The notes beneath the pieces were generated by a model. The model did not search any database. It saw only the letters and a program-made list of their open reading frames with translations, and had not been told where the DNA came from. The position numbers and the translations under genes are program-made. A stretch of DNA of 64,000 bases from the NCBI GenBank assembly GCA_035635555.1, contig DASQAT010000006.1, positions 1 to 64,000 on the forward strand, written 5' to 3'. Below are positions 1,370-18,949 of the stretch, piece after piece (position 1 is the first letter of the stretch; each line of letters opens with the position of its first letter). This DNA is from Candidatus Dormiibacterota bacterium. GTDB taxonomy: Bacteria > Acidobacteriota > Polarisedimenticolia > Gp22-AA2.

Positions 1370-4300
1370 TCACTTGCGCCTGATGGTTAACGAGGCAACA
1401 GAGGAAGCAACAGGCTCCCCCGGGCATCCGATATCGCAGGAGGAGGGCTCCGCCGGCCACGGGCTCGACTCCGTCCCCCACCCGCTCGCGCTCTGGCCTT
1501 CCCGGTACTGCACGAGGTAGAAAAAGGCGGACCCCAGCGCCGGAATCACTCCGCTCGGGCCTTCGGAGTAACTTGCGCCGGTCTGTCCGGAAGCCAGAAC
1601 GTGCACGGGCCCCAGCGAGATCTCTGCGTTTGACACGCTGACCTGGCTCAGGTCACCCTGGATCACGTCGTACATCTCGGCACCGTTGACCGCGTTCCAG
1701 TAAAGATGCGCCATGCCCGGAGTACCGTCACCCTCCAAGCTCACGATCACAGGTTCCGGACCGGTCCCCAAGTCATGCGGCACGGTCACGATCCCAAGCG
1801 CCGATGAGGTGTTTCCTGATGCATCACGCGCGACGTAGGTCAGCGTGTAGACCCGTCCCAGTCCGTCTCCCGAACGCTCGGCTCGCAGCAGCACGCTCGT
1901 GTCCGGCGTGCAGATCGAGGCGTCCTGGATGTCTCCCGTAGTATTCCCGTCACCATTCCCAGGGGCGTCCTCGGGCTCGCTGCTAGTTGCCGACGCGAGT
2001 ATGACGCCAGCCGCAGTATCGCATGCATCGGCCACCTGCCACGCCGCTTGGACCGGCACCATCCGGTGGTTCGGGGGCCACAGTAGTGTCACACTCAAGT
2101 CCAACGTCAGCCGCGGCGGTGTTGTGTCCTGGACTGTCACATTCGTTGTACATGTTGCCACGTTGCCGGATGCGTCCGTCGCCCTAAAGGTCACTGGCGT
2201 CACGCCGAGGGGGAAGATTCCTGAGGCGTCGCCCCCCTTGACCGAGCGGTTGTTGGTAACCGTCACCACAGGGCTGCATGCATCGCTGGCTGTAGCAGCA
2301 ACACTTGCTTGTGCCTCACCAGCCCTGGAGCATTCCGCGGTCGTCGGAGCCGAACAGACCAGGGCGGGAGGTATGTTGTCCCTCACGGTCACCGTCGTCT
2401 GTGCGGCATCTGTTGCACCCTTCGAGTCAGTCACCAAGAGGCCAATGAGGTATGTCCCGAGCGGTAGCGTAGTGTTCAGCACTCGACCGCCCCCCAGGAT
2501 GACTTCGCCCGCCTGACCTGGATTCTTAAGCCACTCGAACGACACAATGTCGTCGTTGGTTCCGGGAGTCGAATCCACGTCCGTCGATCCCGAAGCGTCC
2601 AGCGTCAGGGCGCCTCCCGCCAAACCACTGCACTCCACAGTCGCGACGGAAGTGACCATCGCGTGCGGTGGACTGTTCGGTCGCACGAATATCATCTTCG
2701 ACTCACCCTGGTACTCGAAGTTCTCCTCCGCAGTCACCGGCACGGTCGTCCCGTCGGTCACTGTCACTCTCAAACGATATGTTTCCCCTGACGCCAGGCC
2801 AGTGAGGTCCATCTGAGCCGGGAATCCGTGGTCGAACGGCAAATGCAGGATCGCAGGAGGCTGGGAGCGAAAGAGGACCAGTGTCGACAGGTCGAAGCTC
2901 AAGATGGTCAAATCCAAACCACCCTCGCTCTCACCGGGTCTGCGCAGACAGAAGGCGGCGGGCAGGACCACTTCAGTCAGCGACAAGACTGGATTGAAAG
3001 GAATCTGAGGACGCTCGCATGTGCCCAGGGCGATCAAATAATCCGGTGTGAAGCCGTGGCAGAACAGGATGCTGTCCAAATCGAACAGGAATGGGGCCCC
3101 GGCCGCCCCATTCGTAAACCCGATGCCTTCCCCGATCACACCGCCCGGTAGATATCCTTGGCTGCAGTCGCCGTTCGCGAGGCTGTCGGGAAGAGTGATG
3201 CCCTGCACGGCTGTACTGAAGATTTCCACGAGACCGCTCAGGGGATCGTTCTGCGGGTCAGTGACGCTCAACACGACCTCGATCTTGTCTACCGATTGCC
3301 GCAAGCCGTAAAGGGTTAAATCTGGCTGGCAGGCATCGCCCGAACCATCGTGGTTCGAGTCAGCTTGGTCCGGATTCGAGACGGCCGGGCAATTATCGAG
3401 GTCTCCACAGATACCGTCCTTGTCTGTGTCGTCCAGAGGATCGTGTGGGCAGGGGTCGCAGGCATCGCCGAGCCCATCGCTATCGGAATTCTCCTGGCTT
3501 GGGTTTGGCAAGCTTGGGCAATTGTCCACGCGACAGACGTTCGCCTGGAAACCTGGGTCTCCGAAACCATCGCGGTCGGTGTCGGTACAGGGATCGCAAG
3601 CATCTCCCCGTCCGTCACCATCCGCATCAGCCTGGGACGAGTTGGACACGTTCGGGCAGTTGTCAGGAGGGCAGATGTTTGCCCTGAAGCCTGGATTTCC
3701 GAATCCATCGCCGTCGGTGTCCGTGCAGGGATCGGTGGCGTCGGGTATCCCATCTCCATCCGCGTCGGGGAAGGGCCCCTGGTTGAGCAGCACGGACACG
3801 CCACCGAAATGCGCCGCCGCCAGGTCCGGTCTGGTGTCGCCGTCGAAATCGTTCACTGCAAGGGCGCCGGGAGCGTCCCCGACCAGTAGCCGGACCTCTG
3901 GAAGAAGACCATTGCCAGGGCTTCCCAAGAGTACCGATGCGTCTTCGGATCCATCATTCACAACAGCTAGATCATCGATGCGATCTCCATTGAAGTCTCC
4001 AACGGTCAGGCGAAAAGGACACCCGCCCACGACGGAAGTCACGGGCGGGCCGAACGAGCCGTCCCCGTCGCCGGCGAGGAGAGTCACCAGGCCGAAGATG
4101 TCGCCCAAGACGCACTTAGATGCTCCAATGAGGGCAAGGTCGTTTCCGCCGTCGCTGTTGAAGTCACCCACGGCCATCGCGCTTGGCACTCCATTGGGAG
4201 GTTTCAGTCGAGTCATGAGCTCAAAGCTTCCGTCACCCTTGCCAAAGAGGATGAATACCGTGGCCGCTACAGTTGGATCGGTGCCTGCAACGGCCAAATC

Positions 4301-6031
4301 CAGCTTCTTGTCGGCATTGAGGTAGCCAGCCACCACAAGTCGAGGGTGCAGAATGACACCGAGATTCACGGGCTGGGCAAAAGTCCCATCGCCATTCCCT
4401 GGGAACAGCAAGAGGCCGCCGGGCACATCGACAGACGGCTCGCCACCCGCACTCGCAACAACGAGATCTTCATCTCCGTCGCCGTCGAAGTCTCCAACCA
4501 CCACGGAAGATGGCACTTTCCCAGCGGATAGCTTCTGCTGAATCACGACCCCCCCGTTGCCATCTCCCAGGAGAATCCAGATGTCGCCCGCGATCCCCGC
4601 GGAGGCCAACCCTCTGTTCACGACAACGAGGTCAGGGTGTCCGTCTGTGTTGAAATCTCCGGCACGTATCGAGACGGGCCAAATGGCCAGCGGGATCGAG
4701 GACTGCTCGCTAAACGTTCCATCGCCCGCTCCCAAGAGGATCGAGAGAGAGCCCGCCGAGTCAACCGGGTCGCCAAGGCGTATGCCGGCGAGATCCGCGT
4801 TCCCGTCGCCATCAAAATCCCCGCTTACAATGTCGAAGAAACGACCACCGGGTGTGAACGGAACATTTGGTCCAAACGACCCGTTGCGTTTCCCCTCGAG
4901 AACGAGGACACGATCGGGAAGCCCTACGCCCGATATGACCATCAGATCTTGACGACCATCTCTGTCGAAGTCGCCGACTGCGAGATCCCATGCATAGTCC
5001 GCGTCCACCGTTGAACCCACAACAAACTTGCCCTGGCCCCCCCCGAGCAGAATCGAAACGTTTTCAGAAGTGATATCGGCAACGGCCAGATCTTCATTAC
5101 CGTCCTGGTTGAAGTCTCCCAGAGCGATCGATCCGCACCCTCCACCTCCCGTCGCGGAAATGAGGGGAGGATCAAATGTGCCGTCGCCGTGACCAAGAAG
5201 GACATTCGCTTCGCCGAGTGAATAACCTACCGTGACAAGATCCTGGATGGAGTCGCCATTGAGATCTCCGACTCTCAGGGAGGCCAGATTCGAACCAGCA
5301 GGGAAACGAATCTCTGTGGCGAATGTTCCGTCCCCCTTTCCGAGGAGGATCGACACGTCGTCCGAGCCCTGATTGGCAACCGCCAGATCGGCCGTCCCAT
5401 CTGAGTTGAAATCGGCAGAGGCAACTGAGCGGGGGGCAAATCCCACCGCGTAGGCGACGAGCGGTCTGAACATTCCATTACCCAGACCCAAGAAGACAGA
5501 GACATCGTTGGAGCCCCAGTCCGACACGGCCAAATCGAGATTTCCGTCACGGTTGAAGTCGGCGGCGGAGATCGAGAAAGGATCTCTGTGAGCATCCAAG
5601 CGGCTCCAGAACACGAATGACCCATCACCGTTACCAAGCAGGGCATAAAGTTGATTTGTGTCGCTGTCGGCACTTACGATGTCCAGGATGCCGTCGCCGT
5701 TGAAATCACCCACCGCCAACGCAACCGGACTGTGTCCGAGATCAATCCCCCAAGTGACGGCAAAGCTGCCATCGGTCTTTCCGAGAAACACGCCCACCCA
5801 GCCATTCGGAGGAAAGATAGGGTCGACGTTATTTTGGATCGAGGCTGTCACGGCGAAATCCTGAATTCCATCGTTGTTGAAGTCCGCCACAAGGATCGTG
5901 CCGGCGGATGGGCCGATTGGATAGACTTGATTTGGGAACAGAGGGCTTGCAATCCCAAGAGACATCGGGAGCACAACGACGGCCAGCGAGATGAGGATAA
6001 CTCTGGCAACGAGAGATTGTCGCGGTCTCAT
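1370..6031 (-). CDS. Giant secreted FG-GAP/TSP3/HYR repeat protein
   Basis: About 1553 residues if started at the ATG at 6031, which leads straight into a signal peptide (MRPRQSLVARVILISLAVVV); an earlier in-frame start at 6103 would add 24 poorly supported residues. I count 14 FG-GAP/VCBS repeats with Ca-binding DxNxDG motifs over roughly residues 30-770. They are followed by thrombospondin type 3-like repeats rich in D-D-G and paired Cys (about 775-900), a region I do not recognise, a PKD-like segment with 'LDASGSTDVD', one or two HYR-like modules ('TFRATDASGNVATC') and a C-terminal FN3-like domain. It is probably an extracellular calcium-stabilised adhesin or matrix protein. No C-terminal sorting signal is evident. 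Base composition is lower in GC than in most of the window. Confidence 0.8.
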   Translation of the reverse strand: MRPRQSLVARVILISLAVVVLPMSLGIASPLFPNQVYPIGPSAGTILVADFNNDGIQDFAVTASIQNNVDPIFPPNGWVGVFLGKTDGSFAVTWGIDLGHSPVALAVGDFNGDGILDIVSADSDTNQLYALLGNGDGSFVFWSRLDAHRDPFSISAADFNRDGNLDLAVSDWGSNDVSVFLGLGNGMFRPLVAYAVGFAPRSVASADFNSDGTADLAVANQGSDDVSILLGKGDGTFATEIRFPAGSNLASLRVGDLNGDSIQDLVTVGYSLGEANVLLGHGDGTFDPPLISATGGGGCGSIALGDFNQDGNEDLAVADITSENVSILLGGGQGKFVVGSTVDADYAWDLAVGDFDRDGRQDLMVISGVGLPDRVLVLEGKRNGSFGPNVPFTPGGRFFDIVSGDFDGDGNADLAGIRLGDPVDSAGSLSILLGAGDGTFSEQSSIPLAIWPVSIRAGDFNTDGHPDLVVVNRGLASAGIAGDIWILLGDGNGGVVIQQKLSAGKVPSSVVVGDFDGDGDEDLVVASAGGEPSVDVPGGLLLFPGNGDGTFAQPVNLGVILHPRLVVAGYLNADKKLDLAVAGTDPTVAATVFILFGKGDGSFELMTRLKPPNGVPSAMAVGDFNSDGGNDLALIGASKCVLGDIFGLVTLLAGDGDGSFGPPVTSVVGGCPFRLTVGDFNGDRIDDLAVVNDGSEDASVLLGSPGNGLLPEVRLLVGDAPGALAVNDFDGDTRPDLAAAHFGGVSVLLNQGPFPDADGDGIPDATDPCTDTDGDGFGNPGFRANICPPDNCPNVSNSSQADADGDGRGDACDPCTDTDRDGFGDPGFQANVCRVDNCPSLPNPSQENSDSDGLGDACDPCPHDPLDDTDKDGICGDLDNCPAVSNPDQADSNHDGSGDACQPDLTLYGLRQSVDKIEVVLSVTDPQNDPLSGLVEIFSTAVQGITLPDSLANGDCSQGYLPGGVIGEGIGFTNGAAGAPFLFDLDSILFCHGFTPDYLIALGTCERPQIPFNPVLSLTEVVLPAAFCLRRPGESEGGLDLTILSFDLSTLVLFRSQPPAILHLPFDHGFPAQMDLTGLASGETYRLRVTVTDGTTVPVTAEENFEYQGESKMIFVRPNSPPHAMVTSVATVECSGLAGGALTLDASGSTDVDSTPGTNDDIVSFEWLKNPGQAGEVILGGGRVLNTTLPLGTYLIGLLVTDSKGATDAAQTTVTVRDNIPPALVCSAPTTAECSRAGEAQASVAATASDACSPVVTVTNNRSVKGGDASGIFPLGVTPVTFRATDASGNVATCTTNVTVQDTTPPRLTLDLSVTLLWPPNHRMVPVQAAWQVADACDTAAGVILASATSSEPEDAPGNGDGNTTGDIQDASICTPDTSVLLRAERSGDGLGRVYTLTYVARDASGNTSSALGIVTVPHDLGTGPEPVIVSLEGDGTPGMAHLYWNAVNGAEMYDVIQGDLSQVSVSNAEISLGPVHVLASGQTGASYSEGPSGVIPALGSAFFYLVQYREGQSASGWGTESSPWPAEPSSCDIGCPGEPVASSVASLTIRRK

Positions 6032-6052
6032 GAGATTCCTGGCGTCTGGTAA

Positions 6053-6058
6053 ATCATA
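6053..6058 (-). promoter_or_regulatory. Possible -10 for the FG-GAP gene
   Basis: On the minus strand TATGAT lies 21 nt upstream of the ATG at 6031, and AGGA sits 6 nt before that ATG as a ribosome binding site. The surroundings are clearly AT-rich compared with the rest of the window. No good -35 is seen at 17 nt. Confidence 0.3.
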
Positions 6059-6181
6059 AACTATCATGTTTTCCAATCTCTTGGGGAGCCCACATCCCGT
6101 CACGTCCGTGAATCGCCACGCCGCAAGCCGGGTGGACGCGCATCAGAGAGCCAATGCCAACTGCTTTTCCGCCTCTTCTAG

Positions 6182-6475
6182 CCGCTTCACAGCAACGACT
6201 CGGCGCTTGATCTGGACCCGCGGCTGCCAGCGGCTTTGTACAACTGGGGTAATGATCTTCTACGTCAGGGCGCGTATCGAAGGGCCATGCGTCGCTTCTC
6301 GGAGTCCCTGCGGCTATATCCGACCGACGTATGGGCGCTTAACAACCGGGGGCTGGCGTACATGAAGCTCGGCAAGAGCGAGAAGGCGCGGAGGGACTTC
6401 GAGGCGGCGCTCAGTATCGATCCAGCGTTCGAGCAAGCGAGGCGAAATCTCAAAGGGATTCCGTCAGCGCGATAG
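6182..6475 (+). pseudogene. Truncated second copy of the TPR protein C-terminus
   Basis: The frame opens right after an in-frame TAG at 6179-6181 and has no ATG; the homology begins near 6197 and runs to a stop at 6473-6475. It encodes the last two TPR units of the protein at 315-1274 ('LYNWGNDLLR', 'ALNNRGLAY', 'FEQARRNL'), with about 70 percent identity over the shared 79 residues. The N-terminal signal peptide and transglutaminase-like half are absent. It could in principle be translated from a TTG at 6236 as a small TPR peptide, but it reads best as a gene remnant. Confidence 0.75.
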
Positions 6476-6503
6476 GCTCCGAAAAAACGCGAAGGCCACC
6501 GCC

Positions 6504-8816
6504 TCAGTGGCGGAACCAGTTCAGGAGGCGCGTCGCCCACGAGTCGAATCCGCCCTGGTGCTGGTCGCACTCGGGGGGGACGGTGCCGTCGATGAAGATC
6601 TCGGTCTTGGTGTCGGGGCAGCGGCCGGCGGCGCGCAGACCGGTGGTCGGATCGATCTCCTCCTCGACGATCCCCGGCGGCATCTCCCAGCGCCGCCCCT
6701 TGTCGATACCGGCCCGCTTGGCGATCTGGGCCCAGATCGGCAGGGCCAGGGTCGAGCCGCCCAGGCGCAGGGGGCGGTTGTTGTCGAACCCCACCCAGGC
6801 CACCCCGAGATAATCGGGCGTGAATCCGACGAACCAGGCGTCGCGCCCGTCGTCTGTGGTCCCGGTCTTGCCCGCGAACTCGCCGTCGACGCCGTACGAC
6901 CAGATGGCGGCGCCGGTGCCGTAGCGCACGACGTCCTTCATCAGATCGAGCGTCAGGTAGGAGGCCTGCGCGGAGGCCGCCTCCCGCGAGGGGTGGGGCG
7001 TCGGCTCGACGACCTTGCCGTTGTCGTCGACCACGGCCACGATAGCGCGCGGCCAGGCGTGCGTCCCCAGGTTGGCGAGCGTCGTGTAGGCCGAGGCGAT
7101 CTCCAGGGGAACGACCTCGAACGTGCCGAGCGCTATCGAGGGGACGGGCTGCAGTGGACTGTCGATGCCGCAGCGACGCGCCATCCGCACCACGTCCTTG
7201 AGACCGATCGTCGCCGCGGCGCGGATGGTCGGCACGTTCAGGGACAGCGCCAGCGCCTGGCGCGCGCTCACCGGGCCCCTGTACTCCTGATCGAAGTTCT
7301 GCGGCGACCAGGGATGGCCGGCGACTTCCATCTCGAGGGGCGAGTCGTCCAGGACGGTCGCGGCCGTGAACAGGGGGCTGTGCTCGTCCTGCGCCTTCTG
7401 GAAGCCGGCCAGGTAGACGAACGGCTTGAAGGCCGAGCCGGGCTGGCGGTGCGCCTGGGTGACCCGGTTGAACTGGCTGCGCGCGTAAGACCGGCCGCCG
7501 ATCATCGCGAGGATCGATCCGTCTTCGGGACGAAGCGCCACGAACGCCCCCTGGATCTCGCCCCCCGGCAGCGGGCGCAGCTGGGTGTAGGCGCGCTCGT
7601 ACTGCTTGAGGCCGGCCTCGACCGCCTGGTCGGCGCGCGCCTGCAGGAGCGGGTCGAGGGTGGTGAAGACTCTGATCCCGAGACGCGACGCCGGATCGCG
7701 CAGCCCCTCCTCCTGCAATAGCTGGGCGACGTAATCGATGAAGTAGGGCGCCTGCCGGGCGTCGGCCGGCGGCTCAGGGCGCAGGTTCAGCGGAGCCTCG
7801 CGCGCCTCTTCGAGCTGCTTCTCGTTGATGAATCCTTCCTCGTGCATCAGACGCAGGACCAGGTCGCGCCGGTCGCGCGCCTCGTGCGCGTGCCGGTAGG
7901 GATGGTACCGGCCGGGCGACTGGATCAGCCCTGCGAGGAGCGCCGCTTCCGGCAGGTCGAGGTAGCGCGCGTCCTTGCCGAGGTAGTGGCGCGAGGCCGC
8001 GCCGATGCCGATGATCGAGGTCGGTCCGCGCTGCGCCAGGTAGATCTGGTTCAAATAGCGCTCCAGGATTTCATTCTTGCTGTGCAGGGCCTCGAGGCTC
8101 AGGGCCGCCATGCTCTCCCACAGCTTGCGCGCCAGGGTCCTCTCGCCGACCGGGTAGAGGTTCTTGGCCAGCTGCTGGGTGATGGTGCTCCCCCCCTGCA
8201 CGACTTCGCCGCTCTTGACGTTGGCGAAGAGCGCGCGCAGGATGCCCCGCGGGTCGATGCCGGAGTGACTGTAGAAGCGGCGGTCCTCCACGGCGACGAC
8301 GGCGTCGAGGAGCGGCTTCGGCAGGTCGTCGATCGACACCGCGAGCCTTTCCTCCAGAACGTTGCCCGAGAGCGTTCCGAGCGGCTCGGGCTCGAGCAGG
8401 GCGCGCTCCTGATCCTCCCCGGTCGACAGGTTCTCGATCCGTCCCACGCGGCCGAATCCCAGCTTCACTTTCAGGAGCGCCGCCTCGACCTTTCCGGAGG
8501 GGTAGTCGAAGGCGTTCAGGAAGATCTCCAGCGCCCGGAAGCGGACGGAGTACTCGCCCGGTGTGGACGGATGGCCATCTATTTTGCGGTACCCGAGACG
8601 GGAGAGCCTCTCCTGCAGGTCGTCACGCGCCACGGCCACGCCGTCGGCGAGGACGAACGGCGCGGAGAAGACGCGGGCGGGGGCCGCCGCCTCGAGATGC
8701 GCGAAGCGCCAGTTGGCGTCGATGCAGGCGAGAGTCAGGAGACCGGCGAGGACGAGGGCGACCGCGAGTCCCGCCCTCAACAGCAGGCGGACCGGGTCGA
8801 AACGCCACTTAACCAT
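6504..8816 (-). CDS. mrcB: Bifunctional penicillin-binding protein 1B-like
   Basis: A 770-residue class A PBP that polymerises and cross-links peptidoglycan at the inner membrane. The ATG at 8816 gives a short cytoplasmic tail and one membrane anchor (about residues 12-32). A UB2H-like segment follows (about 50-130), as in PBP1B. The GT51 transglycosylase domain has 'EDRRFYSHSGID' (catalytic Glu177) and 'GGSTITQQLAKN'. The transpeptidase domain has Ser461 in GSAFKP, SLN, and KTGTTDD. Length matches the family. No lipoprotein activator gene is adjacent. It stands alone, divergent from the peptidase pair that starts at 8931. Confidence 0.93.
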   Translation of the reverse strand: MVKWRFDPVRLLLRAGLAVALVLAGLLTLACIDANWRFAHLEAAAPARVFSAPFVLADGVAVARDDLQERLSRLGYRKIDGHPSTPGEYSVRFRALEIFLNAFDYPSGKVEAALLKVKLGFGRVGRIENLSTGEDQERALLEPEPLGTLSGNVLEERLAVSIDDLPKPLLDAVVAVEDRRFYSHSGIDPRGILRALFANVKSGEVVQGGSTITQQLAKNLYPVGERTLARKLWESMAALSLEALHSKNEILERYLNQIYLAQRGPTSIIGIGAASRHYLGKDARYLDLPEAALLAGLIQSPGRYHPYRHAHEARDRRDLVLRLMHEEGFINEKQLEEAREAPLNLRPEPPADARQAPYFIDYVAQLLQEEGLRDPASRLGIRVFTTLDPLLQARADQAVEAGLKQYERAYTQLRPLPGGEIQGAFVALRPEDGSILAMIGGRSYARSQFNRVTQAHRQPGSAFKPFVYLAGFQKAQDEHSPLFTAATVLDDSPLEMEVAGHPWSPQNFDQEYRGPVSARQALALSLNVPTIRAAATIGLKDVVRMARRCGIDSPLQPVPSIALGTFEVVPLEIASAYTTLANLGTHAWPRAIVAVVDDNGKVVEPTPHPSREAASAQASYLTLDLMKDVVRYGTGAAIWSYGVDGEFAGKTGTTDDGRDAWFVGFTPDYLGVAWVGFDNNRPLRLGGSTLALPIWAQIAKRAGIDKGRRWEMPPGIVEEEIDPTTGLRAAGRCPDTKTEIFIDGTVPPECDQHQGGFDSWATRLLNWFRH

Positions 8817-8860
8817 CAGATTCCCTCCGGGCCGTTCCACCTGGACGGGATGGGCAACTG

Positions 8861-8872
8861 GGAGCAGGCTCC
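8861..8872. promoter_or_regulatory. Inverted repeat in the mrcB/M42 divergent spacer
   Basis: GGAGC-AG-GCTCC is a 5-bp perfect inverted repeat in the 114-bp gap between the two divergent starts. It could be an operator or a small hairpin; nothing identifies a regulator. Confidence 0.25.
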
Positions 8873-8930
8873 TAGGGTACCATGTCGCGCCCGCGGAGAT
8901 ATGATCGTGCGGGTTTCGGAGGAGACGACA

Positions 8931-10025
8931 GTGCTCCGGGCAACGATCGTGGTGGTTGCGCTGGCCCTGACGGGCTGGTCGAGCGCGCTGGCCGACCGGA
9001 TCGAAGAGGCCCGCGATCTGGTGCGCGCCCTTGCCTCGGTCGGCGGCGTGGCGGGGCACGAGTGGCAGGTGCGCGCCGTCATCCGCAAGGCGGCGCCGAC
9101 CTGGGCCTCGTTCCAGGACGACAACCTCGGCAATCTGACCGTCGTGGTCGGCTCGGGCAAGCCCTCCCTCCTACTCGTCGCCCACATGGACGAGCCGGGG
9201 TACGTGGTCTCCGGTGTCACCGAGCAGGGATATTTGAAACTGCAAAGGCTGGCCAGGATTCCGCTCTCGCCCTTGTTCGACCAGTTCCACATGGGGCAGC
9301 CGCTCCTGGTGCAGGCGCGCCGCGGCACGGTCCCGGCGGTCGCCGTCGTCCACTCGACCCACCTGTGGCGAGGCAACGCCGCGCCGCTGGCGCACGCGGT
9401 CCTGGACGAGGACCTGTTCGTCGACATCGGCGCGCGAAGCCCGGGAGAGGTCGAGGCGGTCGGCGTGGCCCTGCTCGACCCGGTCGTCATCGCGCGGCGC
9501 ACCGTCGATCTGGCCGGCGGGAAGCTGGCGGGCCCGGCCATGGACGACCGGGCCGGCTGCGCCGCGCTGGTCTGGCTCCTGCAGACCCTCGAGCCCGCGA
9601 AGATCCACGGGACGCTGACCGTCGCCTTCTCGGCGCAGCAGGTCGTGGGGGGGCGCGGGGCGGCGCGTCTGGCGAACCGGATCGAGGCGGACGAGGTTCT
9701 GGTCGTCGACGCCCCGGCGGCGGGAACCGGCAAGACGGCGCCGGCGCCCGGCAAGGGGCCGGTGGTCGCGGTCGCGGGCGGCTCGGACGGCTTCTCGCAG
9801 GATCTCTACAACGTGGTGGCCGAGCGCGCCGCCCGCGCGCAGATCCTGCTGCAGAACGTGCCGTACGGGACGACCGGCGATCAGGGCGCGTTCGCCGGCA
9901 AGAAGCCGGTCCTGCCGATCGGCGTCCCGGTCCTCTACCCCGGCACGCCGGGAGAAGTCATCGACGCGCACGACGTCGTGGCCCTCGCCACGCTCCTCAA
10001 GTCGGTGGCGGAAGGGGACCGATGA
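8931..10025 (+). CDS. M42-family peptidase homologue, probably inactive
   Basis: A 364-residue exported M42 (glutamyl aminopeptidase/FrvX) homologue. I prefer the GTG at 8931: GGAGGAG lies 7-8 nt upstream and the protein then starts with a signal peptide (LRATIVVVALALTGWSSALA). An ATG at 8901 is possible. The first metal-ligand motifs remain (HMDEPGY, MDDRAGC, and VVDAP), but the catalytic/metal Glu-Glu pair is Gln-Gln (FSAQQVVGGRGA) and the last His ligand is replaced (GTPGEVI, against HSPVEVI in its neighbour). It is probably a non-catalytic subunit or pseudo-enzyme. Its stop overlaps the start of the next, intact paralogue by 4 nt, which implies coupled expression. Confidence 0.85.
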   Translation: MLRATIVVVALALTGWSSALADRIEEARDLVRALASVGGVAGHEWQVRAVIRKAAPTWASFQDDNLGNLTVVVGSGKPSLLLVAHMDEPGYVVSGVTEQGYLKLQRLARIPLSPLFDQFHMGQPLLVQARRGTVPAVAVVHSTHLWRGNAAPLAHAVLDEDLFVDIGARSPGEVEAVGVALLDPVVIARRTVDLAGGKLAGPAMDDRAGCAALVWLLQTLEPAKIHGTLTVAFSAQQVVGGRGAARLANRIEADEVLVVDAPAAGTGKTAPAPGKGPVVAVAGGSDGFSQDLYNVVAERAARAQILLQNVPYGTTGDQGAFAGKKPVLPIGVPVLYPGTPGEVIDAHDVVALATLLKSVAEGDR

Positions 10026-11128
10026 GACACCGGGCGCTCGTCGCTCTGTCGCTCGCCGCCCTGCCCGGCGTGCTCCTCGCCGCCCGATCGGCGCGCGAGG
10101 GGGGGAGTTTCGCCATCCTCCAGACCCTCGTCGAGACTCCCGGCGTGTCGACGCGCGAGCAGGGGGTGAGGGATCGGATCCGCTCGCTCCTGCCGTCCTG
10201 GGCAAAGTCCGAGACCGACGCGCGCGGAAATCTGCTGGTGGCGGCGGGGCCGGAGAAGGGGGCGAAGAGCCTCCTGTTCATCGCCCACATGGACGAGACC
10301 GGCTATCTCGTCACCGCGATCCGCGAGGACGGCAGCCTCGACGTCAAGCCGGTCGGCGGCTTCTTCGAGACCCTGTACGAGGGACAGGTCGTCCAGGTGC
10401 ACGCCGCGAAAGGGGACGTCGGCGGTGTGGTGCCGCCGCGCCCGAACTACCTCGACGCGGCGGTCGCGGATGCTCCCGGCGCCTTCGGCAAGGAGGCGGT
10501 GCGCGTGAACGTCGGCGCCCCGTCGCGGGCGGTAGCCGAGGGCCTGGGGATCGCCGCCGGGGACCCGGTCACAATCCCCAAGTCGTTCCAGAGACTGGCA
10601 GGCTCCTACGGATCGGGGCGGGCCGTGGACGACCGCGCCGGCTGCACCGCCCTTCTCCTGGCGCTGCGCGGTCTCGATCCGAAGACGCTGCGCCACAGGG
10701 TTACGTTCGCGTTCTCGGTGGAGGAGGAGACCGGCCTCGACGGGGCGCAGGTGCTGGCGCAGAGCCTGAGGCCGGATCTCGTCATCGCCGTCGACACGTT
10801 CGTGTCGTCGGACAGCCCCCTGGAGCGTCCGGCGTTCGCGCACGCCGTCCTCGGCAAGGGGCCGGTCGTGCGCGCCATCGACAGCAGCAACATCACCGAC
10901 AGGGCGATAGTCGAAAAGGTGCTGTCCCTGGCGAAGCAGGCGGGCGTGCCGATCCAGTACGGCCTGACGCGCGGCGGCAACGACGGCTCGGTGTTCACCG
11001 AATTCGGCACCCCCGACCTGGCGCTGTCGTGGCCGACGGTCCATTCCCACTCGCCGGTGGAGGTGATCCACGAGCGCGACCTGGATGGTCTGGGAACGCT
11101 GGTCAGGCTGGTGGCCGAGCGCTGGTGA
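10022..11128 (+). CDS. M42-family metallopeptidase, active-site intact
   Basis: A 368-residue exported di-metal aminopeptidase-type enzyme. The ATG overlaps the upstream stop (ATGA). A signal peptide (ALVALSLAALPGVLLA) suggests periplasmic action, whereas most characterised M42 enzymes are cytoplasmic and form TET dodecamers. All expected residues are visible: HMDETGY, VDDRAGC, SVEEETGLDGA (catalytic Glu and metal Glu), IAVDTF and HSHSPVEVI. It probably trims N-terminal residues from peptides. Pairing with a dead paralogue suggests a mixed oligomer. Confidence 0.88.
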   Translation: MRHRALVALSLAALPGVLLAARSAREGGSFAILQTLVETPGVSTREQGVRDRIRSLLPSWAKSETDARGNLLVAAGPEKGAKSLLFIAHMDETGYLVTAIREDGSLDVKPVGGFFETLYEGQVVQVHAAKGDVGGVVPPRPNYLDAAVADAPGAFGKEAVRVNVGAPSRAVAEGLGIAAGDPVTIPKSFQRLAGSYGSGRAVDDRAGCTALLLALRGLDPKTLRHRVTFAFSVEEETGLDGAQVLAQSLRPDLVIAVDTFVSSDSPLERPAFAHAVLGKGPVVRAIDSSNITDRAIVEKVLSLAKQAGVPIQYGLTRGGNDGSVFTEFGTPDLALSWPTVHSHSPVEVIHERDLDGLGTLVRLVAERW

Positions 11129-13844: not shown

Positions 13845-15503
13845 GTGCCCACCCTGGATCTGATTCTCGCCAACGGAGAGGTCATCGACGGCACGGGGCG
13901 TCCTTCCTTCCGGGCGGACGTCGGGATCGAAGGGGACAGGATCGCCGCCGTCGCCCCCTCGCTGACCGCCACGGCACCGCGCATCGACGCCCGCGACCGC
14001 GTCGTCGCTCCCGGCTTCATCGACCTGCACTCGCACTCCGATCTCTGCTTCGCTCTGCCGCTCGCGCGCCAGGCGCCTCTTCTCGAAGGACGGGTCCGGC
14101 AGGGGATCACGACGGAGCTTCTGGGCAACTGCGGCATCGGCTGCGCGCCCCTCTCGGGGGAGACCCGCGCCGAGGTCGAGGGGGTCTGCGGCTTCATCAC
14201 CCCCTCGGGTGTGTCGTGGGAGTGGGACTCGTTCGGCGCCTATCTCGAGCGGCTGGAGACACAGGGGGTCCTGGTCAACGTGGCGTCGCTCGTGGCGCAC
14301 GGGCCCCTCCGTCTTCTGGCGATGGGAGCGCGGGCCGGCCCGCCGGCCGAGGACGAGCGGCGGGAGCTCGGCCGCCTGACCCGCCTCGCGGTCGAGGAAG
14401 GGGCCTACGGAGTGTCGTTCGGACTCATCTATCCTCCCGGACAGTTCGCCGACACCGACGAGCTGGAGCACGTGGCGCGCGCGGCCGCCGCGGCGGGCGG
14501 CTTCGCCGCCTTCCACCAGCGCGGCAGCAGCCGCGACACGCTCGACCAGGCGGTGGACGAGATGATCGAGGTGGGGCGGCGCTCTGGTGCCGGCGTGCAT
14601 CACTCCCACGTCGAGACGGTCGGCCGGCGCGCCTGGTCCGGCGCCCCCGACGTCCTGGCGGCCCACGGGCGCGCGGCGCGCGCGGGGATCGGGATCAGCG
14701 CCGACGTCATCCCCTACACGGCCGTCTGCACCACCCTCCTGGCGCTCTATCCTCCGTGGTCGCTCGACGGAGGAGTCGCGGCGTTTCTTTCCCGCCTGCG
14801 CGACCCGGACGTGCGCGCCCGCATGAGGCGCGAGGTGGAGGAGACCTCTCCGGTGTGGCCGCCGTGGGCGGAGGAGGGGAGATTCACCATGAACATCGCG
14901 CGCGAGTGCGGCTGGGACCACATCCGGCTGGCGCACGTCGACGGCGAGCGCAACAAGCCGTTCGAGCACCTGACGATCGCGGAGATCGGGCGGCGGCGCG
15001 GGACGCTGCCGTTCGACGCTCTGTCCGATCTGATGCTCGAGGAATCGGGGATCGCGACGCAGCTGATCTTCGGGATCTCCGGCGACGAGACGACCGACGA
15101 GCCGCTTCTGCCGCTTCTGGCGAGCCCGGGGCTCGCCGTGGTCTCCGATGCCTGGGAGATCGGCAAGGGGTTCCCTCATCCCGGCGCTTACGGAGCCTTT
15201 CCCCGGGTCCTGGGGCACTATGTGCGCGAGCGGAGAGTGCTCGGTCTCGAGGAGGCGGTCCGCAAGATGACCTCGCTTCCGGCTGAGCGCCTGGGCCTGC
15301 GCGACCGGGGGCGTGTCCAGGAAGGGTGCAGGGCCGATCTCGTCGTCTTCGATCCGGAAACCGTCGCCGACCGATCGACCTTCACCGAACCGCGCCGTTT
15401 CGCCGAGGGGATCGACGAGGTCCTGGTGAACGGCCGCAGGATCGTCGCGGGGAGGGAGTTCCGACCGCAGGCGGCGGGGCGCGTCCTGCGCAGGGGGGCG
15501 TGA
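13845..15503 (+). CDS. N-acyl-D-amino-acid deacylase-type amidohydrolase
   Basis: A 552-residue metal-dependent amidohydrolase; the start is GTG at 13845. The family features are the N-terminal beta-sandwich strand (LDLILANGEVIDGTG), the metal-binding 'FIDLHSHSD', the 'GITTELLGNCGIGCAP' segment typical of D-aminoacylases, a later His in HHSHVE, and a C-terminal strand with 'GRVQEGCRADLVVFDP'. Enzymes of this group remove acyl groups from D-amino acids or act on dihydropyrimidine-like amides; the substrate here is not determined. It overlaps the next start by 1 nt (TGATG). Confidence 0.88.
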   Translation: MPTLDLILANGEVIDGTGRPSFRADVGIEGDRIAAVAPSLTATAPRIDARDRVVAPGFIDLHSHSDLCFALPLARQAPLLEGRVRQGITTELLGNCGIGCAPLSGETRAEVEGVCGFITPSGVSWEWDSFGAYLERLETQGVLVNVASLVAHGPLRLLAMGARAGPPAEDERRELGRLTRLAVEEGAYGVSFGLIYPPGQFADTDELEHVARAAAAAGGFAAFHQRGSSRDTLDQAVDEMIEVGRRSGAGVHHSHVETVGRRAWSGAPDVLAAHGRAARAGIGISADVIPYTAVCTTLLALYPPWSLDGGVAAFLSRLRDPDVRARMRREVEETSPVWPPWAEEGRFTMNIARECGWDHIRLAHVDGERNKPFEHLTIAEIGRRRGTLPFDALSDLMLEESGIATQLIFGISGDETTDEPLLPLLASPGLAVVSDAWEIGKGFPHPGAYGAFPRVLGHYVRERRVLGLEEAVRKMTSLPAERLGLRDRGRVQEGCRADLVVFDPETVADRSTFTEPRRFAEGIDEVLVNGRRIVAGREFRPQAAGRVLRRGA

Positions 15504-18500
15504 TGAGGCGCGCGATCAAGGCCGCGCGTGGCGCAGGAGAGGCGGTGTCGATCGGGCTCCTCGTCCCCTTTCTTGTCTGCGCGGCGGACGACGTCATCCA
15601 CGCCAACAACCGCGGCGCCGCCCTGATGGAGCAGTACAAGCACACGCAGGCGGTGGAGGAGTTCCGCCGGGTCACGGCCGGAGCCCCCGCCTGGGCCCCC
15701 GGGTTCGTCAATCTCGGCCTGGCCGCCCTGTACGCGCGCGACGTCGACGGGGCGAAGGAGGCGTTTCTCGAGGCGATCCAGATCGATCCCCGCCTGCCCC
15801 AGGGACACTACGGGCTCGGTCTCGTGCTGAAGAACCAGGGGAAGACGGAGGAGGCGATCGCGGCTCTGGAGAAGGCCCGGGCCCTCGACCCGGACGACCC
15901 GGACATCCTCTACAACCTGGGGCTCCTGCATGCCCGCAGGCGGGATTTCGATCCGGCGATCACGTGCCTGGCCCGCGCCCGCGAGCTCGACCCGAACAGC
16001 ATCTCCGTCCGCTACCAGCTGGCGCGCGCCCTTTTGCAGTCCGGCAAGCGCGCCGAGGGGGACCGCGAGATGTCCGCGTACCAGAAGCTGTCGGCGAATC
16101 CGAAGTTCGCCGTCCCGACCGGCAACCAGTACGGGGAGGCGGGTCGCTACGCGCTCGTCATCACCGATGTCGCGGCGCTCGGCGGCACGAAGCCGCAGAC
16201 CGCGCCCGTGGTCGTCCGTTTCAGCAACGCCACGGCGGCCTCGGGAATCACCTTCCGCCACGCCGGTCCGGGAGGAGAGCCGGGCGGCCCCGCGACGCCG
16301 AAGGACGGAGGCCCCGCGGGGCGGGCGGCCCGCTACGGCTCGGGTCTGGCGATAGGCGACCTCGACGGTGACGGCAAACCCGATCTGGTGCTCGCCAACG
16401 CGTCGGCGGCCGGCAAGGCGCGGCCGGTCCTGTACAGGAACGAGGGAGGCATGGCCTTCGCGGACGTCACGCGGTCCTCCGGCGTCGCGTTCGAGGGCGT
16501 GGGCATGGCGGCGATCCTCGGGGATTACGACAACGACGGCGACGAGGACCTCTATCTGACGCGGCTGGGCGGCGGAGCGCTCTACGCCAACGACGGCAAG
16601 GGACACTTCACGGACGTCACCCGGAAGAGCGGCGCCTCGGCACAAGGGTTCATCCTGGGGGCATCCTGGGCCGACGTGGATCACGACGGCGACCTGGATC
16701 TGTTCCTGAACCGGCTGCCCGTGCCCGGAACGCGCGCTCCGGCCCCGCCGGTGCTCCTGCTGAACCGCGGGGACGGCACGTTCAAGCCTTCCACTCCGGA
16801 GCTGAAGATCACCGGCCCGGCCGGCGGCACCGTCGGTTCGGTCTTTGCCGATTTCGACGCGGACCGGGACATAGACGCGGTCCTGTCGTCCCTGGGCGGC
16901 CAGGACACGCTGCTCGACAACCGGCGGGAGGACGGGTTTGCAGCGCGGGGGCGCGAGGCCGGGCTCAACGCGCACGGCTCGGGGCGTGGTCTGGCGGCCG
17001 GCGACGTGGACGGCGACGGTCTTCCCGACCTGGTCTTCGCGGGAGATAAGGACGCGGCCCTGCGGCTCTTCGTGAACGGCGCCCGCCGGATCTTCACGGA
17101 GCGGGCGATCCCGGCGCCGCCGGGGGCGTCGCTCTTCGGGGTCGTGCTGTTCGACGCGGACAACGACGGCGATCTCGACCTGTTCGCGGCCGGCTCCACC
17201 CTTCTGCTCTACCTCAACGACGGCACGGGCCAGTTCCGCGACGTCTCCTCCGAGGCCGGCCTGCCGCAGATCCAGGTCAAGGACGCGCGCGGTGTCGCGG
17301 CCGCCGACCTGGACGGCGACGGCGATCTGGACCTGGTGGTGACGCAGAACGGCGGCCCGCCGCTTTTGCTGCGCAACGACGGCGGCAGCACGAACCGCTG
17401 GATCGAGGTCGTGCCGCGCGGTCTCAACAGTAATAAGGACGGAATCGGCACGAAGGTGGAGGTGCAGGCGGGACCGGCGTGGCAGCGACGTGAAGTGCAG
17501 GCCGGCGGCGGCTACCTGTCGCAATCGCCGCCCGTGGCCCATTTCGGACTGGGCGGCCGTCCGCTGGCGGACATCGTCCGCCTGCTGTGGCCCGGGGGCG
17601 TCCTGCAGGCGGAGATGGACGTGCCGGCGGGGCAGAGGGTCGAGGAGACCGAGCTCGACCGGAAGGGATCGTCCTGCCCGCTGCTGTTCGCCTGGAGCGG
17701 TCTCAGGTACGGCTTCCTCACCGACATTCTCGGCGGCGGCGGGCTGGGGATGTGGACGGCACCGGGCGTGTACGGCGCTCCCTCCCCCGAGGAATATCTG
17801 AAAATCGAGCCGGAGCAGCTCGTGCCCAAGGACGGCGCCTACCTGATCCAGATGCTGGAGAATCTGGAAGAGATCACCTACCTCGACGAGACGAAGCTCA
17901 TCCTCCTCGATCATCCGAAGGACATCGACGTTTACCCGCTCGGGGCGTTCGGCGGGAAGGAGCGCCAGCCCTATCGCGCGCTGGCGGTGGAGCGATCCGC
18001 GCGCGTCTACCCGCTGCGCGCCATCGACCACAACGATCGCGACGTGACCGGATCCCTCCTCAAGATCGATCGGACCTATCCGGACAACTTCCGGCTCGAT
18101 CGACTGGCCGGGTTCGCCGAGATGCACAACCTGACGCTGGAGTTCCCCGAAAGCGTGACGCGCCTGCAGCGCCCCGTGCTGTTCCTGTACGGCTGGGTCG
18201 ACTTCGAGTACTCGTCCTCCAACTACGCCGCCTCCCAGGCCGGGGTCCGGCTGACGCCTCCCGTTCTCGAGCTGGAGGACAAGGACGATCGGATCTTCCG
18301 CCCGGTCCTCGACCCGATGGGCTTCCCGCCCGGGCTGCCGCGCATGATCAGCGTCGATCTCTCGGACCGGGCTCCGCTGCCGACCCGGCGCCTGCGCCTG
18401 CGCACCAACATGCGCGTCTACTGGGACCAGATCTTCATCGCTGAGCCGCTCGAGGAGAAGGAGGCGTCGGACAGGGTGAAGGTGAACGAGATCAAGCTGA

Positions 18501-18949
18501 GCGGCGCGCACCTGCACCGCCGCGGCTTCCCGCGGGAGCACAGTCCGGACGGCCGCGAGCCGAGGGTCTACGACTACGGCATCCTGGACAACACGCAGCC
18601 GTTCAAGGTGATGACCGGCGACTACACGCGCTTCGGTAGAGTGACCGATCTGCTCACCCGGACGGACGATCGCTTCGTCATCTTCGGCAAAGGCGAGGAA
18701 GTCACCCTGGAGTTCCCGGTCAAGGGGCTGCCGGAGGTGCCGAAGGGTTCGGCGCGCAGCTTCTTCCTGTACGCGAACGGCTATTGCAAGGACATGGATC
18801 CGCACACGGCGTTCCCGGACACGGTGGAGCCTCTGCCGTTCCACGGCATGTCGGCCTATCCGTACCCGCAGGGGGAGACCTACCCGGACGACGCGGAGCA
18901 CCGGGACTATCGCAAGACCTGGAACACCCGGCGCCGGGAAGGGCGATAG
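15503..18949 (+). CDS. Secreted TPR / FG-GAP / ASPIC-UnbV protein
   Basis: A 1148-residue exported protein. A signal-like hydrophobic stretch (about residues 15-28) is followed by four or five TPR units (about 32-190). Seven FG-GAP/VCBS repeats come next (IGDLDGDGKPD, LGDYDNDGDED, WADVDHDGDLD and so on, about 285-620), then an ASPIC/UnbV module (GIGTKVEVQAG ... HFGLGGR, about 650-715). The last 430 residues (from about 725) form a separate domain I cannot name, starting SSCPLLFAWSG, rich in Tyr, Phe and Asp. TPR plus FG-GAP plus UnbV is common in Acidobacteriota. The role is unknown; binding of a surface polymer or partner is likely. The gene lies just upstream of an ABC-2 exporter pair. Confidence 0.8.
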   Translation: MRRAIKAARGAGEAVSIGLLVPFLVCAADDVIHANNRGAALMEQYKHTQAVEEFRRVTAGAPAWAPGFVNLGLAALYARDVDGAKEAFLEAIQIDPRLPQGHYGLGLVLKNQGKTEEAIAALEKARALDPDDPDILYNLGLLHARRRDFDPAITCLARARELDPNSISVRYQLARALLQSGKRAEGDREMSAYQKLSANPKFAVPTGNQYGEAGRYALVITDVAALGGTKPQTAPVVVRFSNATAASGITFRHAGPGGEPGGPATPKDGGPAGRAARYGSGLAIGDLDGDGKPDLVLANASAAGKARPVLYRNEGGMAFADVTRSSGVAFEGVGMAAILGDYDNDGDEDLYLTRLGGGALYANDGKGHFTDVTRKSGASAQGFILGASWADVDHDGDLDLFLNRLPVPGTRAPAPPVLLLNRGDGTFKPSTPELKITGPAGGTVGSVFADFDADRDIDAVLSSLGGQDTLLDNRREDGFAARGREAGLNAHGSGRGLAAGDVDGDGLPDLVFAGDKDAALRLFVNGARRIFTERAIPAPPGASLFGVVLFDADNDGDLDLFAAGSTLLLYLNDGTGQFRDVSSEAGLPQIQVKDARGVAAADLDGDGDLDLVVTQNGGPPLLLRNDGGSTNRWIEVVPRGLNSNKDGIGTKVEVQAGPAWQRREVQAGGGYLSQSPPVAHFGLGGRPLADIVRLLWPGGVLQAEMDVPAGQRVEETELDRKGSSCPLLFAWSGLRYGFLTDILGGGGLGMWTAPGVYGAPSPEEYLKIEPEQLVPKDGAYLIQMLENLEEITYLDETKLILLDHPKDIDVYPLGAFGGKERQPYRALAVERSARVYPLRAIDHNDRDVTGSLLKIDRTYPDNFRLDRLAGFAEMHNLTLEFPESVTRLQRPVLFLYGWVDFEYSSSNYAASQAGVRLTPPVLELEDKDDRIFRPVLDPMGFPPGLPRMISVDLSDRAPLPTRRLRLRTNMRVYWDQIFIAEPLEEKEASDRVKVNEIKLSGAHLHRRGFPREHSPDGREPRVYDYGILDNTQPFKVMTGDYTRFGRVTDLLTRTDDRFVIFGKGEEVTLEFPVKGLPEVPKGSARSFFLYANGYCKDMDPHTAFPDTVEPLPFHGMSAYPYPQGETYPDDAEHRDYRKTWNTRRREGR

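Follow-up and report, generated by a model that had tools for sequence, protein, structure and literature searches.

The locus considered here, in a genome of the Acidobacteriota deposited as Candidatus Dormiibacterota bacterium (contig DASQAT010000006.1), raises the question of what a catalytically dead homologue of the M42 metallopeptidases does beside a live one. The two open reading frames were placed correctly in an earlier note on this DNA, as was their 4-nt overlap, an ATGA at positions 10022-10025 which suggests that the genes are translationally coupled (Table 1; the window is the whole stretch of 64,000 nucleotides that was analysed). Both match the Pfam model Peptidase_M42, gene 1 with 145.4 bits and gene 2 with 229.4 bits (curated cut-off, 23.2 bits), and a genome-wide search found no M42 domains other than these two. 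Among named relatives, a gp22 AA4 metagenome genome is the closest, with 77% identity in gene 1. Pfam searches of ten neighbouring open reading frames returned unrelated genes or no family, and the gene neighbours vary between lineages, so that they give no clue to the pathway or the substrate; short periplasmic peptides would be a reasonable guess for the latter, judging by the family. Divergent from the pair, on the minus strand of the window at 6504-9059, lies a bifunctional penicillin-binding protein with a UB2H domain, whose listed start overlaps gene 1 and whose true start is probably near 8816. Long proteins with many D-x-D-x-D-G repeats, FG-GAP/VCBS-like, are encoded at 1370-6103 (minus) and 15326-18949 (plus), the N-terminal part of the latter being made up of repeats that look TPR-type.

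Characterised TET/M42 enzymes are regarded as cytoplasmic. The products of gene 1 and gene 2 are both likely to be exported, as the earlier note had also read them, their N-termini beginning with basic residues, followed by a hydrophobic core and a cut site of small residues (judged by composition only). By the same judgement of composition only, such N-termini are present in the dead subunits with complete starts and in the stand-alone live subunits of other genomes, and where the two domains are fused the signal-like N-terminus is found on the first (dead) domain only. Two live genes, L151 (genome G125) and L156 (G214), have a signal peptide ending in a lipobox-like Cys context and may encode lipoproteins.

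Table 1. Features of the M42 gene pair, in window coordinates
Feature	Position	Strand	Remarks
Ribosome-binding-like site GGAGGAG	8918..8924	+	6 nt 5' of the gene 1 GTG; read from sequence
Gene 1, M42 homologue, catalytically dead, putatively exported	8931..10025	+	364 aa; GTG start; stop 10023-10025
Gene 1, predicted signal peptide	8931..8993	+	21 aa, end ...SSALA; hydrophobic core, AxA-type end; composition only
His85, M2-metal His, present in this copy	9183..9185	+	retained in 4/35 dead subunits
Asp87 of HxD motif	9189..9191	+	invariant: dead 35/35, live 36/36
His144, loop His, equivalent of PhTET2 His123	9360..9362	+	invariant, dead 35/35
Asp165, dimer contact, equivalent of PfTET3 Asp137/PhTET2 Asp142	9423..9425	+	invariant, dead 35/35
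Asp205, bridging-metal Asp, present in this copy	9543..9545	+	retained in 6/36 dead subunits
Gln237-Val238 in place of catalytic Glu and metal Glu	9639..9644	+	alignment
Gly338 in place of M1-metal His	9942..9944	+	alignment
ATGA overlap, gene 2 start and gene 1 stop	10022..10025	+	read from sequence
Gene 2, M42 metallopeptidase, full catalytic set, putatively exported	10022..11128	+	368 aa
Gene 2, predicted signal peptide	10022..10084	+	MRHR basic start, hydrophobic core; composition only
Tyr143 replacing loop His in gene 2	10448..10450	+	lost in 34/36 live partners
Asn163 replacing dimer-contact Asp in gene 2	10508..10510	+	lost in 24/36 live partners
Glu235-Glu236, catalytic and metal Glu intact	10724..10729	+	alignment
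His343, M1-metal His intact	11048..11050	+	alignment

The AlphaFold model of gene 1 has a confident M42 fold (pLDDT 90.4, pTM 0.90), its closest solved structures being M42 TET enzymes with MJ0555 and PhTET1 first, and its confidence is lowest around residues 141-160, which include the active-site loop. The earlier note had credited this protein with the fold and the first metal motifs, and both are present, His85 and Asp87 included. It had also read a Gln-Gln in place of the catalytic and metal Glu-Glu. The loss is real, but the register was one residue out: alignment with PhTET1 and gene 2 sets Gln236-Gln237-Val238 of gene 1 against the Gln-Glu-Glu of active M42 enzymes, and the first Gln is thus the ordinary M42 residue. 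The final metal His is absent as claimed, with glycine at its position. What gene 1 still has is His85, Asp87, Asp205 and Asp260. The M2 ligand set (equivalents of PfTET3 His63, Asp177 and Asp230) is therefore intact, whereas the M1 set and the base are gone, and with His85, Asp205 and Asp260 kept the protein could still bind one metal at M2; in more distant dead copies the M2 ligands have gone too. Lacking the general base and the M1 ligands, gene 1 is to be regarded as a non-peptidase homologue rather than as an M42 peptidase. Gene 2 is complete, as had been stated, with all di-metal ligands and the base in place (His89, Asp91, Asp203, Glu235, Glu236, Asp258 and His343), and its product is expected to be an active peptidase.

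Of the 396 Acidobacteriota genomes sampled, 36, from 19 families, were found by profile searches to have the dead gene, and in all 36 a live M42 domain accompanies it, immediately next to it whenever the assembly allows this to be seen. The two are arranged in tandem as dead-live in 17 genomes and as live-dead in two, and are fused in the other 17, the fused open frames spanning about 695-801 aa where complete (for example, 737 aa in G255 and 768 aa in G006). Contig ends leave the live half partial in G050 and G384 and truncated in G088, and the dead half of G123 lies on separate contigs. Presence is patchy, and a genome of the same genus (G001) is without the pair. The dead subunits (34 rows) form one clade with a support of 100/100, which indicates a single origin, and the live partners form another (100/99). 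The fused or tandem state changed at least three times on the tree, and the fusion of G006 is nested among tandem pairs with a support of 100/100.

Outside the Acidobacteriota, two phyla were sampled, one through a Chloroflexota locus (301 genomes) and one through a Desulfovibrio-named locus (299 genomes), and neither gave a match above 223 bits. The ten best-scoring non-acidobacterial matches were all intact M42s in which the loop His and the dimer Asp discussed below were also kept. Similarly, a motif scan of the loci from a GTDB-wide search, with patterns taken from gene 1 only, gave no second case.

Purifying selection acts on the dead gene: its dN/dS was 0.09-0.52 in 11 genome comparisons, usually somewhat above that of the live partner, and gene 1 had 0.15 against its nearest orthologue. 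These ratios, together with an intact gene in 36 genomes, exclude a pseudogene. A sporadic mutation is excluded as well: orthologues that restore the Glu pair would, according to the earlier note, have pointed to a recent mutation, and the metal Glu is missing in 36 of 36. At the metal-Glu position the dead subunits have any residue except Glu. A Gln-Gln motif is not conserved among the orthologues, as these positions are variable; at that of the general base S, E, Q, T, G, A, D and R all occur.

What the dead subunits do conserve is found elsewhere in the fold. The mobile loop of PhTET2 carries a conserved Pro-Pro-His, and its His123 is thought to come near the active site of the adjacent subunit; mutation of this His weakens substrate binding (PMC8993905). 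In PfTET3, Asp137, just past the loop, makes a salt bridge to Arg311/Tyr312 of the dimer partner, beside the metal-binding His314 (PMC4745047). Residues were mapped through the PhTET2 chain (VPPHI at 120-124; Asp142 in FIDIG), the equivalence of Asp142 and PfTET3 Asp137 resting on a constant numbering offset of five residues. The loop His is kept in 35/35 dead subunits versus 2/36 live partners and the dimer Asp in 35/35 versus 12/36. The catalytic set goes the other way: the metal Glu is kept in none of 36 dead subunits versus 35/35 live partners, the catalytic Glu in 9/36 versus 35/35 and the final metal His in 4/36 versus 33/33, and all metal ligands and the base are present in every live row with data. 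Nine columns are invariant among 25 diverse dead subunits, with His144 and Asp165 among them. Asp87 also persists in every dead subunit with data though the adjacent metal His is mostly gone, which points to a metal-independent use. In the unpaired M42s of the Acidobacteriota both residue sets are kept (9/9); these include the single M42 of G018, which has a signal-like N-terminus and lies near the base of the split.

The only live partners with a loop His are the live halves of two fusions, in G041 (L161) and G069 (L159), where it stands in GHL, and both of these have lost the dimer Asp (to Phe and Tyr, respectively). The loop region of the live half is shortened in five fused lineages. The acceptor Arg311 is kept in 14/33 live partners. 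In another live gene (L148 of G338, at 6053-7426 of its locus) an Ala/Pro/Gln-rich insert of about 60 residues is situated exactly in the active-site loop region. Loss of the loop His is not unique to the pairs: among 137 unpaired controls with a residue aligned at this position, 38 also lack it, and many of these are the third, short-loop members of M42 clusters in clostridia. What sets the pairs apart in the aligned sequences is that this loss in the live subunit goes together with constant retention of the residue in the dead partner. Moreover, the sequences are related and the counts therefore not independent; the reciprocal loss probably represents few events, so that Fisher values overstate the significance, and the long-term retention is a stronger argument than Fisher values on residue counts. 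The clostridial clusters deserve a remark of their own. Loci L030, L031, L037, L040, L043, L044, L047-L049 and similar ones have three adjacent M42 genes, all with Glu-Glu intact; in the third, HMDE is often replaced by HMDQ and the loop is short, with no loop His. Such triplets may form hetero-oligomers in which one member uses the loop of a sibling.

We consider it fairly probable that gene 1 and gene 2 encode an exported, obligately heterodimeric M42 peptidase with a composite active site. Physical association of the two proteins is suggested by the fusions and the constant pairing, and a contact in trans by the residue retention together with the published work on homomeric relatives. The gene 2 subunit would bind both metals and provide the general base, with the gene 1 subunit as its non-catalytic partner, and the two would dimerise through PDZ-like domains as in the TET enzymes. 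The mobile loop of the dead subunit could then set His144 over the live active site, where it would take part in substrate binding, and Asp165 could clamp the edge of the live subunit beside the metal His; the direction of the loop towards the dimer partner is taken from the cited papers, which describe a mobile loop with His-to-metal distances from 4 to >20 angstroms. There would thus be a single complete, composite site per heterodimer in place of two identical ones. On the simplest view, the ancestor was an exported homodimeric M42 enzyme that underwent a single old duplication in the Acidobacteriota, after which complementary halves of its two identical composite sites would have been lost from the two copies; both halves would later have been joined into one chain in several lineages.

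The dead subunit could instead be a regulator, an inhibitor or a scaffold (a chaperone, a stabiliser or a zymogen-like brake) that gives no residues to the active site. Constant pairing and fusion would fit any tight partnership, and pseudoenzymes often regulate or scaffold their active relatives, as reviewed in PMC11266112. However, such a role does not predict that exactly the loop His and the dimer Asp should be invariant in the dead subunits and lost in the live ones, and a permanent inhibitor fused into one chain would be odd. This explanation is regarded as unlikely, though it is the best of the alternatives to the composite-site heterodimer.

The oligomeric state bears on a second alternative, a mixed TET-type dodecamer in which dead and live subunits, as homo- or heterodimers, would build a hollow particle like that of PhTET2-PhTET3. 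The M42 fold is retained, and of the two residues that make the dimer-dimer contact in the PfTET3 particle, Gln206 and Arg212 (PMC4745047), the dead subunits keep the Gln in 30/36 and Arg/Lys in 26/36. The live subunits, on the other hand, have mostly lost them: gene 2 has Glu234 and Asp240 at these positions, and its clade has Gln in 14/35 and Arg or Lys in 6/34. The M1 metal, a stabiliser of the oligomer interface, is gone from the dead subunit. In addition, homodimers were the building blocks in the model of the PhTET2-TET3 particles (PMC4220976), and a homodimer of dead subunits would have no use for the loop His. A mixed particle is thus very improbable. Since the live subunits are largely without the Gln and Arg of the TET contact, a heterodimer is the safer reading, and a plain heterodimer is favoured here over a larger assembly. 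The earlier note had suspected that dead and live subunits form a hetero-oligomer in the periplasm. The comparative evidence, with 36/36 paired and 17 fusions, strongly supports the association, but gives no specific support to a mixed TET particle. That gene 1 merely encodes a periplasmic peptide-binding or sensing protein co-expressed with a peptidase is just as improbable. In its favour are the likely export of both proteins, the three ligands of the M2 metal and the M42 pocket, which could bind a peptide, that are retained in this copy, and the fact that overlapping genes can be simply co-expressed; against it, 17 pairs are fused, the dead gene was never found without the live one in the 36 genomes, and a free binding protein would have no reason to keep the interface Asp in 35/35.

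The composite-site heterodimer can be compared with several known systems. The TET aminopeptidases (PhTET1/2/3, PfTET3 and MJ0555) share the fold with both proteins and the catalytic set with gene 2, and their mobile-loop His has been proposed to act at the active site of a neighbour (PMC8993905). However, every TET subunit is active and has its own loop His, there is no dead-live pair among them, and in the mixed PhTET2-TET3 particles both enzymes are active. YtoP and YsdC of Bacillus subtilis are paralogues of the M42 fold for which a heteromer was described from in-cell crosslinking and modelling (PMC10090944; PDB 9a5r); in the part of that source that was available, neither a dead subunit nor export nor a reciprocal loss of residues is mentioned. 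PhTET2-TET3 (PMC4220976) and YtoP-YsdC (PMC10090944) show that M42 paralogues can assemble together. In DapE (M20), which has a related di-metal fold, the dimerisation domain is needed for catalysis and a His of this domain is proposed to aid substrate binding (PMC4012986), but DapE is known as a homodimer of identical subunits and has no known pseudoenzyme partner.

The proposed arrangement is like that of the M16 peptidases. In M16 pairs, a metal-binding half is joined by a homologous metal-free half that supplies an R/Y pair and so completes the active site, and the halves occur either as separate subunits or fused (PMC12731061). The likeness of the M16 heterodimers (MPP alpha/beta, SPH2681/2682 and TTHA1264/1265) and of one-chain insulysin, FusC and PqqL to the M42 pair is one of arrangement only, as the M16 fold is unrelated and has an HXXEH motif; neither gene 1 nor gene 2 matches the M16 Pfam models, the matches being to M42, plus weak ones to M28/M20 for gene 2. 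At the sequence level, the residue pattern of the M42 pair fits a completion in trans of the M16 kind. We lean slightly towards the wider reading that exported M42 heterodimers of this kind are found across the phylum and that the active site of an ancestral homodimer has been split between two paralogues, as an M42 counterpart of M16; one paralogue would then have kept the metals and the base, and the other nothing but the loop His that acts in trans and the Asp of the interface.

A literature search on M42, pseudopeptidases and Acidobacteria found nothing relevant, and no dead-live M42 pair was reported in the literature covered, coverage being partial so that absence is not proven. A recent review of metallopeptidase pseudoenzymes (PMC11266112) does not include M42, and if the present reading is true, M42 would join the list of families with such pseudoenzymes. 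The role of the M42 loop His has stayed open because action in cis and in trans cannot be separated by simple mutation in homomeric enzymes. In the pairs, evolution seems to have put the two functions on different chains, which makes the question testable with one mutant per subunit, and the natural fusions would be ready-made constructs for structural work. If true, the pairs would also mean that the solution seen in M16, a dead half and a live half that occur either separate or fused, has arisen a second time independently.
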